Origin: Thermoflexus hugenholtzii JAD2
GTDB taxonomy: Bacteria; Pseudomonadota; Gammaproteobacteria; Burkholderiales; Burkholderiaceae
DNA length: 64,000 nt
Direction: 5' to 3'
Assembly: GCA_943325205.2 (NCBI GenBank)
Contig: CALPOM020000002.1
Coordinates: forward strand, 1-64,000
Every line of letters starts with the position of its first letter. Positions within the stretch are counted from its first letter, which is position 1. The notes under the pieces were generated by a model. It saw only the letters and a list, made by a program, of their open reading frames with translations, made no database searches and was not told the origin of the DNA. Shown here piece by piece: positions 28,371-39,664 of this stretch. The position numbers were made by a program, and so were the translations under genes.

Positions 28371-28427
28371 GATTGAATTTTAAACACCAAACCAATATTT
28401 TTGTTCAATAAAAGACTTGAAATGTAA

Positions 28428-28433
28428 TATAAT
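28428..28433 (+). promoter_or_regulatory. probable -10 element of the ilvB promoter
   Basis: A perfect TATAAT lies 135 bases before ilvB. No good -35 hexamer is found at 16-18 bases, so an activator may be needed. The implied leader of about 129 bases holds no ATG, so no attenuation peptide like that of leuA is seen. Confidence 0.45.
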
Positions 28434-28532
28434 TTAAAGTTCGCTTACACGAAACCTTTTAAAAGAAGGGTTTGAATCCGCAAGCATAGCCGCACGAAGT
28501 CACGCCACAAGCTGGGCAGAGAGCAGACCAAC

Positions 28533-28552
28533 CAATTTTTTGCCGAAAATTG
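28533..28552 (+). repeat. hairpin in the ilvB leader next to the ribosome-binding site
   Basis: CAATTTT and AAAATTG pair around TTGCCG. The right arm abuts AAAGGA, the ilvB ribosome-binding site. It could influence ilvB translation; AT-rich, so weak. Confidence 0.35.
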
Positions 28553-28568
28553 CAAAGGACTATTAGAA

Positions 28569-30374
28569 ATGAATACTGTCAATGAAGTTGTAAATACCCC
28601 GTTTAAGTCAAACGAACAACTAGCACCCAATCCAGCATCAAATTCTGAAGTGCCATCTTCCGCCCAAATAATTGGTGCCGAAATTTTGGTTCGAGCTTTA
28701 GCCGAGGAGGGGGTTGAATACGTCTGGGGTTACCCTGGCGGTTCAGTTTTATACATATATGACGAAATTCACAAACAAGAAAAATTCGAGCATATTTTAG
28801 TGCGTCATGAGCAGGGTGCTGTGCACGCTGCTGATGGCTTTGCCCGCGCTTCTGGTAAGGTGGGCGTTGCTCTAGTTACGTCCGGACCGGGCGTCACAAA
28901 TGCTGTTACCGGTATTGCCACGGCCTATATGGACTCTGTACCACTTGTGGTGATTACTGGCAACGTGCCTTCGCACATGATTGGCGAGGACGCTTTTCAG
29001 GAGTGTGACACCGTTGGTATTACTAGGCCAATTGTCAAACATAATTTTTTAGTAAAAGATGTAAAAGACTTAGCAGTAACGATAAAAAAAGCCTTTCACA
29101 TTGCTCAAACTGGTCGGCCTGGACCTGTGGTCATCGACATTCCCAAAGATATTTCTTTTCACAAAGCCGTTTATGAATATCCAAAAGAAATTGAAATGCG
29201 TTCGTATAACCCAGTGCTGCGGGGGCATTCTGGCCAAATTCGTAAAGCCATTCAGTTATTGCTAGATGCGAAGCGCCCATATATTTATAGTGGTGGGGGC
29301 GTTATTTTGGCAAACGCTGCGCCGCAACTCAAGGAATTTGCTGAATTATTAGGTTATCCGGTTACCAATACGTTAATGGGCCTCGGTGGATTTCCTGGTT
29401 CCAACCCTCAGTTTGTTGGGATGCTTGGTATGCATGGCACTTACGAAGCCAATATGGCTATGCAAAATGCAGATGTAGTGATCGCGATTGGTGCGCGCTT
29501 TGATGACCGAGTGATTGGTAATCCTCAGCATTATATGAGTGTGCCGCGCAAGGTGATTCACGTGGATATTGATCCATCGGTGATTTCCAAAAGAGTCCAC
29601 GCTGACGTGCCGATTGTTGGCAATCTTAAGGACGTTTTGACAGAGATGACGGCACAGATTCGCTCGATGGGTCCTATTAAAAACCAGTCCGACGTTCAAA
29701 TTTGGTGGCAGCAAATTAAAGAATGGCAAAAAACAGATTGCTTGAAATATGATCGCCAATCTGAAATCGTCAAACCACAATATGTCGTTGAGAAGTTGTA
29801 CGAATTGACTGGTGGAGACGCATTCATCTGCTCGGATGTAGGGCAGCATCAAATGTGGGCAGCGCAGTTTTATAAATTCAACAAGCCTAGAAGATGGATT
29901 AATTCTGGTGGACTAGGCACCATGGGAGTTGGGTTGCCTTATGCGATGGGAATTAAAAAGGCTTTTCCTAATGAAGAAGTGTGTACGATTACTGGCGAGG
30001 GGTCGATTCAAATGTGTAGTCAGGAATTGTCGACCTGTTTGCAATATGACACGCCGATTAAGATCATTTCCCTCAATAATCGGTATTTGGGAATGGTCAG
30101 ACAATGGCAGGAGTTAAGTTACAGTAAGAGATACTCCCATTCTTATATGGATTCCTTACCCGATTTTGTGAAGTTAGCGGAAGCTTATGGTCATGTCGGG
30201 ATGCGGATTGAAAAAACTGCAGACGTCGAGGGGGCTTTGCGTGAGGCCTTGAAATTAAAAAAACGCACAGTCTTCATGGACTTTCAGACTGACCCAACAG
30301 AGAATGTTTGGCCGATGGTTGAAGCCGGCAAGGGAATTACAGAAATGTTGCTCGGTGGGGAGAATGATGAATGA
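28569..30374 (+). CDS. ilvB: acetolactate synthase large (catalytic) subunit
   Basis: The 601-residue ThDP enzyme joins two pyruvates, or pyruvate and 2-oxobutyrate, in the first common step of valine, leucine and isoleucine synthesis. The catalytic glutamate motif RHEQGAVHAADGFARASGK, the FAD region and the ThDP motif GEGSIQMCSQELSTCLQYDTPIKIISLNN (GDGx25-30NN type) are visible. An N-terminal extension of about 30 polar residues (SNEQLAPNPASNSEVPS) precedes the conserved start. Its stop overlaps the ilvH start by ATGA. Confidence 0.96.
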   Translation: MNTVNEVVNTPFKSNEQLAPNPASNSEVPSSAQIIGAEILVRALAEEGVEYVWGYPGGSVLYIYDEIHKQEKFEHILVRHEQGAVHAADGFARASGKVGVALVTSGPGVTNAVTGIATAYMDSVPLVVITGNVPSHMIGEDAFQECDTVGITRPIVKHNFLVKDVKDLAVTIKKAFHIAQTGRPGPVVIDIPKDISFHKAVYEYPKEIEMRSYNPVLRGHSGQIRKAIQLLLDAKRPYIYSGGGVILANAAPQLKEFAELLGYPVTNTLMGLGGFPGSNPQFVGMLGMHGTYEANMAMQNADVVIAIGARFDDRVIGNPQHYMSVPRKVIHVDIDPSVISKRVHADVPIVGNLKDVLTEMTAQIRSMGPIKNQSDVQIWWQQIKEWQKTDCLKYDRQSEIVKPQYVVEKLYELTGGDAFICSDVGQHQMWAAQFYKFNKPRRWINSGGLGTMGVGLPYAMGIKKAFPNEEVCTITGEGSIQMCSQELSTCLQYDTPIKIISLNNRYLGMVRQWQELSYSKRYSHSYMDSLPDFVKLAEAYGHVGMRIEKTADVEGALREALKLKKRTVFMDFQTDPTENVWPMVEAGKGITEMLLGGENDE

Positions 30375-30862
30375 GGCATATTATTTCGGTTTTGTTAGAA
30401 AATGAGCCTGGAGCATTATCAAGGGTAGTTGGATTATTTTCTGCGCGCGGTTACAACATCGAAAGTTTGACTGTTGCCCCGACTGAAGACGCCTCGTTAT
30501 CACGTATGACAATAGTGACAACTGGGTCTGATGAGGTCATTGAGCAGATCACGAAGCATTTAAACCGCTTAGTTGAGGTTGTTAAGGTTTATGATTTGAG
30601 TGAAGGCTTGCATATTGAGCGCGAATTGATGCTCATTAAAGTTCGAGCAGTTGGAAAAGAGCGCGAGGAAATGAAGCGAACGACTGATATCTTCAGGGGT
30701 CGGGTAATTGATGTAACGGATAAAAGTTATACGATTGAGTTAACGGGTGACTCGGCTAAGTTAGATGCTTTTATTGAAGCAATTGATCAAGCATCCATCT
30801 TGGAAACCGTTCGAACGGGTGCCTCTGGCGTAGGGCGAGGCGAGAGAGTTTTACGGGTTTAG
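30371..30862 (+). CDS. ilvH: acetolactate synthase small (regulatory) subunit
   Basis: The 163-residue protein has an N-terminal ACT domain (HIISVLLENEPGALSRVVGLFSARGYNIESLTV) for valine binding and a C-terminal ACT-like domain (ELMLIKVRAVGKEREEMKRT). It activates IlvB and makes it valine-sensitive. The ATG overlaps the ilvB stop by four bases, so translation is coupled and the subunits are made in step. Confidence 0.96.
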   Translation: MRHIISVLLENEPGALSRVVGLFSARGYNIESLTVAPTEDASLSRMTIVTTGSDEVIEQITKHLNRLVEVVKVYDLSEGLHIERELMLIKVRAVGKEREEMKRTTDIFRGRVIDVTDKSYTIELTGDSAKLDAFIEAIDQASILETVRTGASGVGRGERVLRV

Positions 30863-32633: not shown

Positions 32634-32642
32634 GGGTTGCTC

Positions 32643-33572
32643 ATGGCGCAATTTCGCAAAAATAGAATTTCTCGGCCAAAAGTTTTTAAGCAAGCCCGAT
32701 TGCGTTCTTCCGAAAATGAATCAAGCCAGCATTTGGATATTTCCGCCCCTCCAGAACCGTTAAAAGAGTTTTATCCAAAGCCGCGCAATAAGGCGATTTA
32801 TTTACTACCGAATGCCTTTACGACAGCCGCTTTGTTTTGTGGTTTTTTTGCGATAGTGCAAGCCATGAACCAGCGTTGGGAAGTGGCCGCAATTGCCATA
32901 TTTTGCTCGATGGTTTTAGATGGTATGGATGGACGAGTAGCCAGAATGACGCGCACGCAAAGCGCTTTTGGGGAGCAGTATGACTCGTTAGCTGACATGG
33001 TGTCATTCGGAGTTGCCCCAGCACTAGTAGCCTATGAGTGGACTTTAAAAGGGCTTGGGAAATGGGGTTGGTTAGCAGCATTTATATATTGCGCTGGGGC
33101 GGCACTGCGTTTAGCCCGTTTTAACATCATGACAGGAGAAGCCGATAAGCGTTTCTTCCAAGGTCTTCCAAGTCCGGCTGCGGCGGCAATTATCGCGGGT
33201 TTTGTTTGGTTAGCCGAGGATAATAAATTACCTGTTGCGAACCTAGCTATTCCTTGGACGATGTTCTTTTTGACAATTTATGCTGGTATTACGATGGTTT
33301 CGAATGTGCGGTTTTATAGTGGTAAGACTTTGGATATTCGCTATCACGTCCCTTTTGGAATGATGGTACTTCTTATTTTGTTATTTGTTTTAGTCTCTAG
33401 TGATCCTCCATTGACGCTATTTGGATTATTTGTTTTATACGCCTTATCTGGATATGTGACATGGTTTTGGGGCATTTTGCCATTTAGTAAAAAGGTGGGC
33501 CGTGCGAAGACTACAATTATCTCTAAAGCCCCTTCGGGCTCTGATGAAAAATTAGATGTAGTGAACAAGTGA
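32643..33572 (+). CDS. pssA: CDP-diacylglycerol-serine O-phosphatidyltransferase
   Basis: Makes phosphatidylserine from CDP-diacylglycerol and serine at the inner membrane. The CDP-alcohol phosphotransferase motif DGMDGRVARMTRTQSAFGEQYDSLAD is complete, with about seven helices around it. ATG 32643 with AAGGG upstream is preferred to the TTG at 32637. A polar N-terminal extension of about 45 residues precedes helix 1. Its stop codon overlaps the -35 element of the leuA leader promoter. Confidence 0.94.
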   Translation: MAQFRKNRISRPKVFKQARLRSSENESSQHLDISAPPEPLKEFYPKPRNKAIYLLPNAFTTAALFCGFFAIVQAMNQRWEVAAIAIFCSMVLDGMDGRVARMTRTQSAFGEQYDSLADMVSFGVAPALVAYEWTLKGLGKWGWLAAFIYCAGAALRLARFNIMTGEADKRFFQGLPSPAAAAIIAGFVWLAEDNKLPVANLAIPWTMFFLTIYAGITMVSNVRFYSGKTLDIRYHVPFGMMVLLILLFVLVSSDPPLTLFGLFVLYALSGYVTWFWGILPFSKKVGRAKTTIISKAPSGSDEKLDVVNK

Positions 33573-33597
33573 CATAAAAATTAATTCGGTGTATAGT
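33569..33597 (+). promoter_or_regulatory. promoter of the leuA leader transcript
   Basis: GTGACA (33569-33574) and TATAGT (33592-33597) each match the sigma-70 consensus at five of six positions with an ideal 17-base spacer. The -35 overlaps the pssA stop codon. Transcription would start about six or seven bases after the -10, at or next to the A of the leader-peptide ATG (33604). Confidence 0.7.
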
Positions 33598-33603
33598 ATT
33601 TAT

Positions 33604-33687
33604 ATGAAATTCAATAAGCAATTATTTTTAATACTGAACCTTCTGGCACTGGATCATTTGACCGGGGCTAGAGATCGAGTTTGCTAA
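33604..33687 (+). CDS. leuL: leuA leader peptide (leucine attenuator)
   Basis: ATG at 33604 opens a 27-codon ORF, MKFNKQLFLILNLLALDHLT, ending TAA at 33685. Seven of codons 7-19 specify leucine (TTA, TTA, CTG, CTT, CTG, CTG, TTG), far above expectation. It lies between a good promoter and an intrinsic terminator in front of leuA. This is the classic layout of transcription attenuation by ribosome stalling on scarce leucyl-tRNA. No Shine-Dalgarno sequence is seen, and the promoter spacing suggests a leaderless start. The ORF is too short for the supplied track. Confidence 0.85.
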   Translation: MKFNKQLFLILNLLALDHLTGARDRVC

Positions 33688-33733
33688 ACAGCATTTATTT
33701 AAAAAGACATACATAACGAATCTTACTAACCCC
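33664..33733 (+). promoter_or_regulatory. leuA antiterminator (alternative pairing)
   Basis: GGGGCTAGAGATCG (33664-33677) can pair with CGAATCTTACTAACCCC (33717-33733): GGGG/CCCC, TAG/CTA, AGA/TCT and TCG/CGA, with one mismatch and two small bulges, 13 base pairs in all. It uses the left arm of the terminator, so the two structures exclude each other. The 5' segment lies in the last codons of the leader peptide, where a ribosome at the stop codon would cover it. Confidence 0.65.
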
Positions 33734-33758
33734 AGCCAAGTTGCTGGGGTTTTGTTTT
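33728..33758 (+). terminator. intrinsic terminator of the leuA attenuator
   Basis: AACCCCAGC and GCTGGGGTT form a perfect 9-bp stem around CAAGTT, followed by TTGTTTTAT. It lies 40 bases before leuA and after the leucine-rich leader ORF. Confidence 0.88.
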
Positions 33759-33797
33759 ATATGAGTGAGTAAATTAAGCACAATTAGGAGAAAGAAG

Positions 33798-35348
33798 ATG
33801 GCAATGGACAAACTAATCATTTTTGACACCACTTTGAGGGATGGCGAACAGTCGCCAGGCGCTTCCATGAGTAAAGATGAGAAAGTTCGAATTGCAAGAC
33901 AACTAGAGCGATTACATGTCGATGTCATTGAAGCTGGGTTTGCCGCGAGTTCCCCGGGTGATTTTGCGGCCATTCAAGCCGTTGCAGCAGCGGTCAAGGA
34001 CGCGACGATTTGTTCATTAGCACGTGCGAATGAGTACGATATCACGCAAGCTGCAAAGGCTCTAGAGGGTGCCAATTCAAAAAGAATCCATACTTTTATT
34101 GCCACCAGTGCTTTGCATATGGAAAAAAAGTTGCGCATGACACCAGAACAGGTCATGGAGCAAGCCATTGCATCAATCCGGCTAGCACGGCAGTTTACCG
34201 ATGATATTGAATTCTCACCAGAGGATGGTTACCGTTCAGATCCGGAATTTTTATACCGTGTCTTAGAGGCCGTGATTCGGGAAGGTGCTACAACTATAAA
34301 CGTACCAGACACTGTGGGTTATGCTGTGCCGGAGTTATATGGTCAGTTCATTCTCGATTTACGGCAAAAGATTCCTAATTCCGATAAAGCGATTTGGTCG
34401 GTACATTGCCATAATGATTTAGGTTTAGGGGTAGCAAACTCCTTAGCGGGCATACATATTGGCGGAGCACGTCAAGTCGAATGTACTATTAATGGTTTAG
34501 GTGAGCGAGCAGGAAATACTTCCTTAGAAGAGATTGTGATGGCTGTTAAAACACGTCGCGATTTTTATAACTTACAAGTTGGCATCGATGCCACACAAAT
34601 TGTTTCTAGTTCGAAGATGGTTTCACAAATTACTGGGTTTGTGGTGCAGCCAAATAAGGCTGTAGTAGGAGCTAATGCCTTCGCACATGCCTCAGGTATC
34701 CATCAAGATGGGGTTTTAAAGGCGCGCGATACTTATGAAATTATGCGTGCTGAGGATGTGGGCTGGAGTGCTAATAAGATTGTTCTTGGGAAGCTGTCTG
34801 GCAGAAACGCTTTTAAGCAAAGATTACAAGAGCTTGGTGTATCGATGGATTCTGAGGTTGATTTGAACGCTGCTTTTACCAGGTTTAAAAGCTTAGCTGA
34901 TCAAAAATCTGAGATTTTTGATGAAGATATCATGTCTATTTTGTCAAACTCGCAACAGCAACAGGGCGCTGATTTTTACCGATTTGTTTCTTTATCGCAG
35001 CACTCCGAGACGGGGGAGGTGCCTCGGGCGAAGATTGTTTTACAAATGGGCGGTATTGAACAAAGTAGTTCAAGCGAGGGAAATGGCCCAGTAGATGCCA
35101 CTTTAAATGCGATTGAAGTTCAAGCCCAAAGTGGTGCTGAGTTACTGCTCTATTCCGTCAATGCGATTACTGCGGGGACGCAGTCGCAAGGTGAGGTCAC
35201 GGTTCGTTTAACCAGAGCTGGCCGGGTCGTGAATGGGGTTGGTACGGATCCTGACATCGTTGCGGCCTCGGCTAAGGCGTATTTGGCCGCATTAAACCGT
35301 TTACATGACCCAGCTGGAGAGAAGATCAACGCGCAAATGGCACCTTAA
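33798..35348 (+). CDS. leuA: 2-isopropylmalate synthase
   Basis: Condenses acetyl-CoA with 2-oxoisovalerate, the first step specific to leucine. The catalytic motif [19 protein letters not shown] and metal ligands in [19 protein letters not shown] are present, with a C-terminal leucine-binding regulatory domain (residues about 390-510). ATG 33798 ([10 protein letters not shown]) follows AGGAGAAAG and gives 516 residues; the track start at 33765 lies inside the attenuator. Control is by the leader peptide and terminator upstream, in addition to expected feedback inhibition. Confidence 0.96.
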
Positions 35349-39578: not shown

Positions 39579-39664
39579 GCCGACGTGGTGGAATTGGTAG
39601 ACACGCTATCTTGAGGGGGTAGTGGCGTAAAGCTGTGCGAGTTCGAGTCTCGCCGTCGGCACCA
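39579..39664 (+). tRNA. tRNA-Leu (GAG anticodon), CCA encoded
   Basis: The 86-base gene has a perfect acceptor stem GCCGACG/CGTCGGC, D arm TGGTGGAATTGGTAGACAC, anticodon arm CTATC-TTGAGGG-GGTAG with GAG in the loop, a long variable arm as in class II tRNAs, the T arm GCGAGTTCGAGTCTCGC, discriminator A and a genomic CCA. GAG reads CTC/CTT leucine codons. Confidence 0.95.

Follow-up and report, generated by a model that had tools for sequence, protein, structure and literature searches.

Organization of the pssA-leuA locus

The DNA analyzed here, a window of 64,000 nucleotides assigned to the genus Polynucleobacter, carries a candidate attenuator in the gap between pssA and leuA (Table 1). The pssA gene is the upstream neighbor and lies outside the switch; the gap itself accommodates a sigma-70-type promoter, a short Leu-rich ORF (leuL), and a set of alternative RNA hairpins ahead of leuA, whose Shine-Dalgarno sequence falls in none of the predicted stems. 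The sole tRNA gene of the window, encoding a tRNA-Leu with a GAG anticodon, is found at 39579-39664, ~4 kb downstream of leuA. In contrast to leuA, no obvious leader peptide with a terminator is seen at 28371-28568, the stretch preceding the ORFs (28569-30862) that lie before ilvC, where acetolactate synthase genes are usually located.

Table 1. Features of the pssA-leuA region, in coordinates of the window
Feature	Position	Strand	Basis or remark
pssA, CDP-diacylglycerol-serine O-phosphatidyltransferase	32637..33572	+	TIGR00473, 120.7 bits, above cut-off
-35-like hexamer GTGACA	33569..33574	+	overlaps pssA stop codon; GTGACA/ATGACA also in related Polynucleobacter
-10 hexamer TATAGT	33592..33597	+	17-nt spacer from -35
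Predicted transcription start	33603..33604	+	A of leader ATG or 1 base earlier; inferred from 6-nt -10 distance
Leader ORF leuL, MKFNKQLFLILNLLALDHLTGARDRVC*	33604..33687	+	27 codons, TAA stop at 33685-33687, no Shine-Dalgarno
1:2 protector hairpin	33641..33673	+	-14.5 kcal/mol, z -4.1
Antiterminator 5' strand (region 2), GGGGCTAGAGATCG	33664..33677	+	leader codons 21-25; equivalent stem in 32 relatives
Antiterminator 3' strand	33717..33733	+	overlaps terminator 5' arm
Intrinsic terminator	33728..33758	+	stem 33728-33751 (AACCCCAGC/GCTGGGGTT), then U-rich tail TTGTTTTA
Shine-Dalgarno of leuA, AGGAG	33786..33790	+	sequence reading and Shine-Dalgarno count
leuA, 2-isopropylmalate synthase	33798..35348	+	NF002087, 864 bits, and TIGR00973, 686 bits, both above cut-off

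The initial annotation had described a GTGACA-17-TATAGT promoter followed by a 27-codon ORF with seven Leu codons between codons 7 and 19, and reading of the sequence reproduces both exactly. The leader is enriched in codons for the end-product amino acid, with Leu at codons 7, 9, 11, 13, 14, 16, and 19 (7/27), and the hexanucleotide ATTTAT (6 nt) separates the -10 hexamer from the leader ATG. Downstream, the 13-bp antiterminator that had been proposed is returned with identical pairs by RNAfold, at -12.7 kcal/mol compared with about -28 kcal/mol in relatives. The terminator stem (9 pairs, -15.5 kcal/mol, z -3.9) shares 33728-33733 with the antiterminator, and the two structures are therefore mutually exclusive, as had also been claimed. 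A further element, absent from the first reading, is the 1:2 protector hairpin, which ties the 5' strand of the antiterminator to the region of Leu codons 13-16 and completes the classical attenuator design.

Taken alone, the window offers few grounds for judgment. Its antiterminator is weak (z -1.6, with 18/200 shuffles equally good), a consensus promoter scan found 2 sites versus 2.6 expected by chance, and a scan for terminator-like sites recovered them at the chance rate for such a stretch. Relatives were gathered because the promoter count and antiterminator score were near chance; the promoter or the antiterminator by itself is unconvincing in the window, and the comparative data put the whole far beyond chance. 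The window has 59 short ORFs whose start lies 5-8 nt past a -10 with 5/6 matches, and the leuA leader is the only one with a strong GC-rich terminator behind it; the rest of the window thus yielded no further leaderless attenuator candidate of this strength. Moreover, a promoter scan of the interval between terminator and leuA found none, and transcription of leuA must therefore pass through the terminator.

Conservation of the leader peptide

Loci collected for comparison comprised 94 from Polynucleobacter, ~40 from other Burkholderiaceae, 80 named ones drawn Burkholderiales-wide, and 60 mostly from other betaproteobacterial families. A leader followed by a GC-rich terminator, 22-43 nt past the leader stop and hence between leader and structural gene, was present in 94/94 of the Polynucleobacter loci. 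The alignment that the initial annotation had called for shows Leu retained through synonymous changes. Across 88 distinct leaders, the best columns hold Leu in, e.g., 88/88, 87/88, and 86/88 sequences, and columns 12, 17, 18, 19, and 21 hold it in 74-88 of 85-88 sequences, each with 3-6 different codons. Since pN/pS is also lowest in the leader frame (0.63, versus 1.07 and 1.34 for the alternative frames), it is the amino acid that is selected and not the RNA alone. Selection on the RNA may be visible in one Polynucleobacter locus (L172, 209-362), where a one-base deletion alters the C-terminus of the leader and the region 2 RNA is retained, which points to conservation of region 2 at the RNA level.

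The choice of Leu codons is also unusual. CTA makes up 30% of the Leu codons in the 94 leaders versus 9% in the genes of the window, the Polynucleobacter share being about 30-36% in leaders versus 2-9%. The share reaches 44% in leaders of non-Polynucleobacter Burkholderiaceae, 50% in those of Comamonadaceae, and 40% in those of Oxalobacteraceae, compared with 0-2% in their leuA genes (Fisher p about 1e-60 for the non-Polynucleobacter Burkholderiaceae and 3e-89 for Comamonadaceae, as calculated from rounded counts of related sequences). The leader of the window has 0 CTA, and three of its seven Leu codons are CTG, the least used of all Leu codons in neighboring genes (5.1%; P = 0.004). The Salmonella leu leader likewise depends on rare CUA codons.

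A predicted leaderless start

The initial annotation regarded the leader as apparently leaderless, and the comparison agrees, with a conserved distance between -10 and ATG and the lack of a Shine-Dalgarno sequence; the start itself is predicted. A 5/6-match -10 sits 6-8 nt before the ATG in 93/94 Polynucleobacter leuA leaders. Larger distances tabulated for Polynucleobacter correspond to in-frame Met codons just downstream, with the exception of L188 (208-349), the sole leader of the 94 with ATA at the leaderless position and an ATG 3 nt later. The -35 is weak and TTAGCT-like in the main Polynucleobacter clade.

The strongest evidence for leaderlessness, with the 5' end itself predicted, is an unbiased test in which the upstream ORF was picked by Leu density alone. 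The -10 lay at 6-7 nt in 80/94 Polynucleobacter loci, versus 1 among reverse complements and 1-2 among shuffles. In 181 loci outside that set, 10 of them named Polynucleobacter records, a 5/6-match -10 lay at 6-7 nt in 53 (reverse complements 0, dinucleotide shuffles 0-2), and a 4/6-match -10 did so in 89 (reverse complements 1, shuffles 4-7). The distance profile accordingly has a sharp peak at 6 and 7 nt. Shine-Dalgarno-like 4-mers precede 11/94 Polynucleobacter leaders versus 91/94 leuA starts, and they occur in 0/111 leaders of the non-Polynucleobacter groups.

Conservation and predicted switching of the RNA structures

In the main Polynucleobacter clade (32 sequences), the antiterminator is 96.7% paired with 3 doubly changed pairs, the protector hairpin and terminator together are 99.1% paired with 2, and the protector-equivalent hairpin is 99.6% paired with 1, so that the pause hairpin is also conserved in relatives. 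Shifting the 3' strands abolishes pairing. Compensatory changes, which had been proposed as a check, are thus present in the 1:2, antiterminator, and terminator stems, and the covariation is supportive and not overwhelming because the counts reflect few evolutionary events. For the exact antiterminator stem of the window there is no covariation, its own clade yielding near-identical sequences only. An RNAalifold consensus fails over all 55 Polynucleobacter leaders and works in a 33-member main clade, because antiterminator sequences differ between clades; when the 5' strand of one clade was combined with the 3' strand of another, the duplex was not weakened consistently.

Equilibrium folding was rejected as a readout of the switch, since the terminator is preferred nearly always. 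Only nascent RNA extending to the 5' arm of the terminator is therefore informative, and the model requires co-transcriptional kinetics, on which such attenuators generally rely. The nascent RNA was folded with a ribosome masking the transcript through 12 nt past its A-site codon. With the ribosome at the middle Leu codon, 100% of loci formed the antiterminator. The share was 99% for a ribosome at the third-last Leu codon, fell to 32% at the second-last and to 2% at the last, and reached 0% at the stop codon. In the window, a ribosome at codon 16 still leaves the antiterminator available, and one at codon 19 abolishes it. The nascent folds thus switch in the manner first claimed, with a ribosome at the stop codon masking the 5' strand of the terminator-excluding antiterminator and an early stall leaving it free.

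Proposed mechanism

The leader ORF, its conserved Leu codons, the -10 to ATG distance, the terminator, and the alternative folds, all read from sequence and comparison, make it highly probable that the gap holds a ribosome-mediated transcription attenuator of leuA with a leaderless, Leu-rich leader. For the start site, ribosome stalling, and response to leucine, we infer the following course. RNA polymerase would start at or within 1-2 bases of the leader ATG, and the 27-codon leader would be translated as a leaderless RNA. With ample Leu-tRNA, the ribosome would reach the stop codon at 33685 and cover region 2, upon which the terminator stem would form and transcription would halt ahead of leuA. 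With scarce Leu-tRNA, the ribosome would stall at the middle Leu codons and open the 1:2 protector hairpin, and the freed region 2 would pair with the 3' strand at 33717-33733, allowing polymerase to continue into leuA. Finally, were the leader left untranslated, the 1:2 hairpin would favor termination.

Leaders beyond Polynucleobacter

A leaderless Leu leader was found in 41/51 loci of Comamonadaceae and relatives, followed by a terminator in 40/41. The stem of this terminator (..GCCCGT..GCGGGC plus a T-run) is unrelated to that of Polynucleobacter, and its 5' arm is complementary to an ACGGGC in the leader that encodes a conserved HGR/NGR. Similarly, Cupriavidus-type leaders end in CAGGTCGGGACGCG, complementary to CGCCCCGGCCTG of their own terminator. 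Because duplexes between leader and terminator 5' arm were mostly not significant against shuffles outside Polynucleobacter (5/40 in Comamonadaceae), the antiterminators of these groups are proposed from visible complementarity only.

Burkholderia, Paraburkholderia, Oxalobacteraceae, and many other betaproteobacterial families also possess the leader, and the same test mostly found no intrinsic terminator after it. In non-Burkholderiaceae families (L223-L273), leaders often end GLLLR(L/P)AR* or GLLLRGRAH* (the asterisk marking the stop; e.g., L232, L246, and L258), and a C-rich, G-poor stretch lies past the leader stop, with a GCAGTA/AGTAG motif in 18/42 leaders versus 3 expected. It is possible that such terminator-free leaders use a second expression platform, involving Rho, translation, or a protein. 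Pairing of the Leu-codon run with the downstream GCAGUA was considered and is not claimed, since overall the strength of the duplex did not exceed chance (14% at p<=0.05). Five sampled betaproteobacterial families (f5, f13, f27, f31, and f50) with a LeuA frame of ~600+ codons seemingly lack a Leu leader.

We lean somewhat towards the view that control of leuA by a leaderless Leu peptide is ancient and betaproteobacteria-wide and has passed through several expression platforms: intrinsic terminators with unrelated stems in Polynucleobacter, Cupriavidus, and Comamonadaceae, and, in many other families, a terminator-free arrangement in which the leader has the conserved end GLLLR(L/P)AR* and a C-rich, GCAGTA-like motif lies downstream. 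It may also be that the translation start at the 5' end was selected as part of the switch, tightly coupling the first ribosome to RNA polymerase.

Alternative explanations

An attenuator could be real and its leader not leaderless, if transcription began farther upstream, within pssA or at a distal promoter, with translation of the leader starting at an internal ATG that lacks a Shine-Dalgarno sequence. The predicted nature of the 5' end, the weak -35 of the main clade, and the chance-level promoter count would all suit such an arrangement. Yet the 6-7 nt distance is kept across betaproteobacterial families with otherwise unlike leader peptides, and an internal start calls for no fixed distance from a -10 and no loss of the ribosome-binding site, both of which these leaders show; together these points make this reading unlikely. 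It is less likely still that the leader senses leucine and acts mainly through Rho-dependent termination or through translation of leuA, with the hairpin an accessory. The lack of a clear intrinsic terminator in most families outside Polynucleobacter, Comamonadaceae, and Cupriavidus would fit this idea, as would the C-rich, G-poor stretch after the stop and the leuA leader of Streptomyces, which also lacks a typical terminator (PMC8079986). In Polynucleobacter, however, every locus has the terminator, which competes with an alternative stem, and the Shine-Dalgarno sequence of leuA is outside every predicted stem.

The least credible reading, to which we give almost no weight, takes the hairpin as the terminator of pssA only and the short ORF as a chance reading frame. 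The hairpin does lie downstream of pssA, and the scan recovered terminator-like sites at chance rates; nevertheless, the scan found no promoter between hairpin and leuA, and transcription of leuA would thus have to read through it. A chance frame would also sit poorly with Leu kept via synonymous codons, with the enrichment of rare codons, and with the leader/terminator pair of Comamonadaceae, whose stem sequence is unrelated. A leucine attenuator of leuA with a leaderless leader thus remains the preferred reading.

Relation to known systems

No Rfam 15 family matches the window, the region 33400-33900 (E<=10), or the relatives scanned (E<=1), namely 16 further leuA leaders, most of them of the same family, and 16 belonging to other families; RyhB, Trp_leader, and similar matches were rejected as sub-threshold look-alikes. 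The initial annotation had mentioned a published leuA-associated RNA motif in Burkholderia; no counterpart was found in Rfam 15, where no family matches the leader or its relatives in Cupriavidus, Burkholderia/Paraburkholderia, and other families. The enterobacterial Leu_leader (RF00512) is absent among the E<=10 matches of 33400-33900, and other genera and families are unmatched at E<=1. Likewise, cmscan returned no match to the T-box covariance model, either for the window or for this region at E<=10.

A close likeness is nonetheless seen to leuL of E. coli and Salmonella (RF00512), which shares a Leu-rich leader, the 1:2/2:3/3:4 logic, a terminator before leuA, and rare Leu codons. The present betaproteobacterial element differs in being apparently leaderless, in spreading its Leu codons over 13 codons, and in preceding leuA alone, behind pssA, rather than leuABCD. 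The E. coli leader peptide is 28 aa in length with 4 Leu (PMC6123439).

Leaderless leader peptides have been described in other settings. In the alphaproteobacterium Sinorhizobium meliloti, the 5' end of trpL RNA is the ATG of the leader ORF (peTrpL), and a classical attenuator follows (PMC7298713); that system concerns tryptophan, trpE(G), and a known 5' end, whereas the present one concerns leucine, leuA, and a predicted 5' end. Upstream of leuA in Streptomyces and other actinobacteria is a leaderless, Leu-rich leader (LeuL1, LEU element) (PMC8079986, PMC1262725), and leuL of Streptomyces lividans lacks a typical terminator (PMC8079986). For the LEU element, a pseudoknot has been proposed, as has pairing between the Leu run and the leuA Shine-Dalgarno sequence; the Polynucleobacter locus instead has a terminator/antiterminator pair and a leuA Shine-Dalgarno sequence free of predicted stems. 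Mycobacterial poly-cysteine leaderless sORFs (Canestrari 2020, as cited in PMC13236596) are, on that secondary account, similarly rich in codons for the regulated amino acid, but they are cysteine-responsive, with unrelated genes and sequences. Leaderless mRNAs as such have been documented in Burkholderia cenocepacia (PMC4603805) and Cupriavidus metallidurans (PMC7563307).

In 255 genomes surveyed for Rfam-type regulators, Burkholderia and Ralstonia among them, amino-acid attenuators were placed essentially in gammaproteobacteria, and the conclusion was that they may have arisen there, with few transfers (PMC3766115); the main text of a structured-RNA survey covering Polynucleobacter necessarius leaves leuA and leucine unmentioned (PMC8632094). 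In partial coverage of the literature, no account of a leu attenuator in betaproteobacteria came to light, and an earlier prediction in a survey of proteobacterial attenuators (Vitreschak et al. 2004) is possible. The mechanism is an ordinary one and its setting new: a leucine attenuator of the classical kind, its leader peptide predicted to be leaderless, in a widespread and apparently uncatalogued betaproteobacterial family.

Implications

Short-ORF gene finders that demand a Shine-Dalgarno sequence will overlook peptides of this kind, and leuA promoters taken from Cupriavidus or Comamonas would bring a hidden leucine switch with them. The present leaders point to a wide distribution of Leu attenuation among betaproteobacteria, overlooked because stem sequences vary by family and the leaders lack a ribosome-binding site. 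Two questions have now become testable: whether attenuators favor translation of leaderless RNA, and what accounts for the use of CUA, the rare codon also found in the Salmonella leader.
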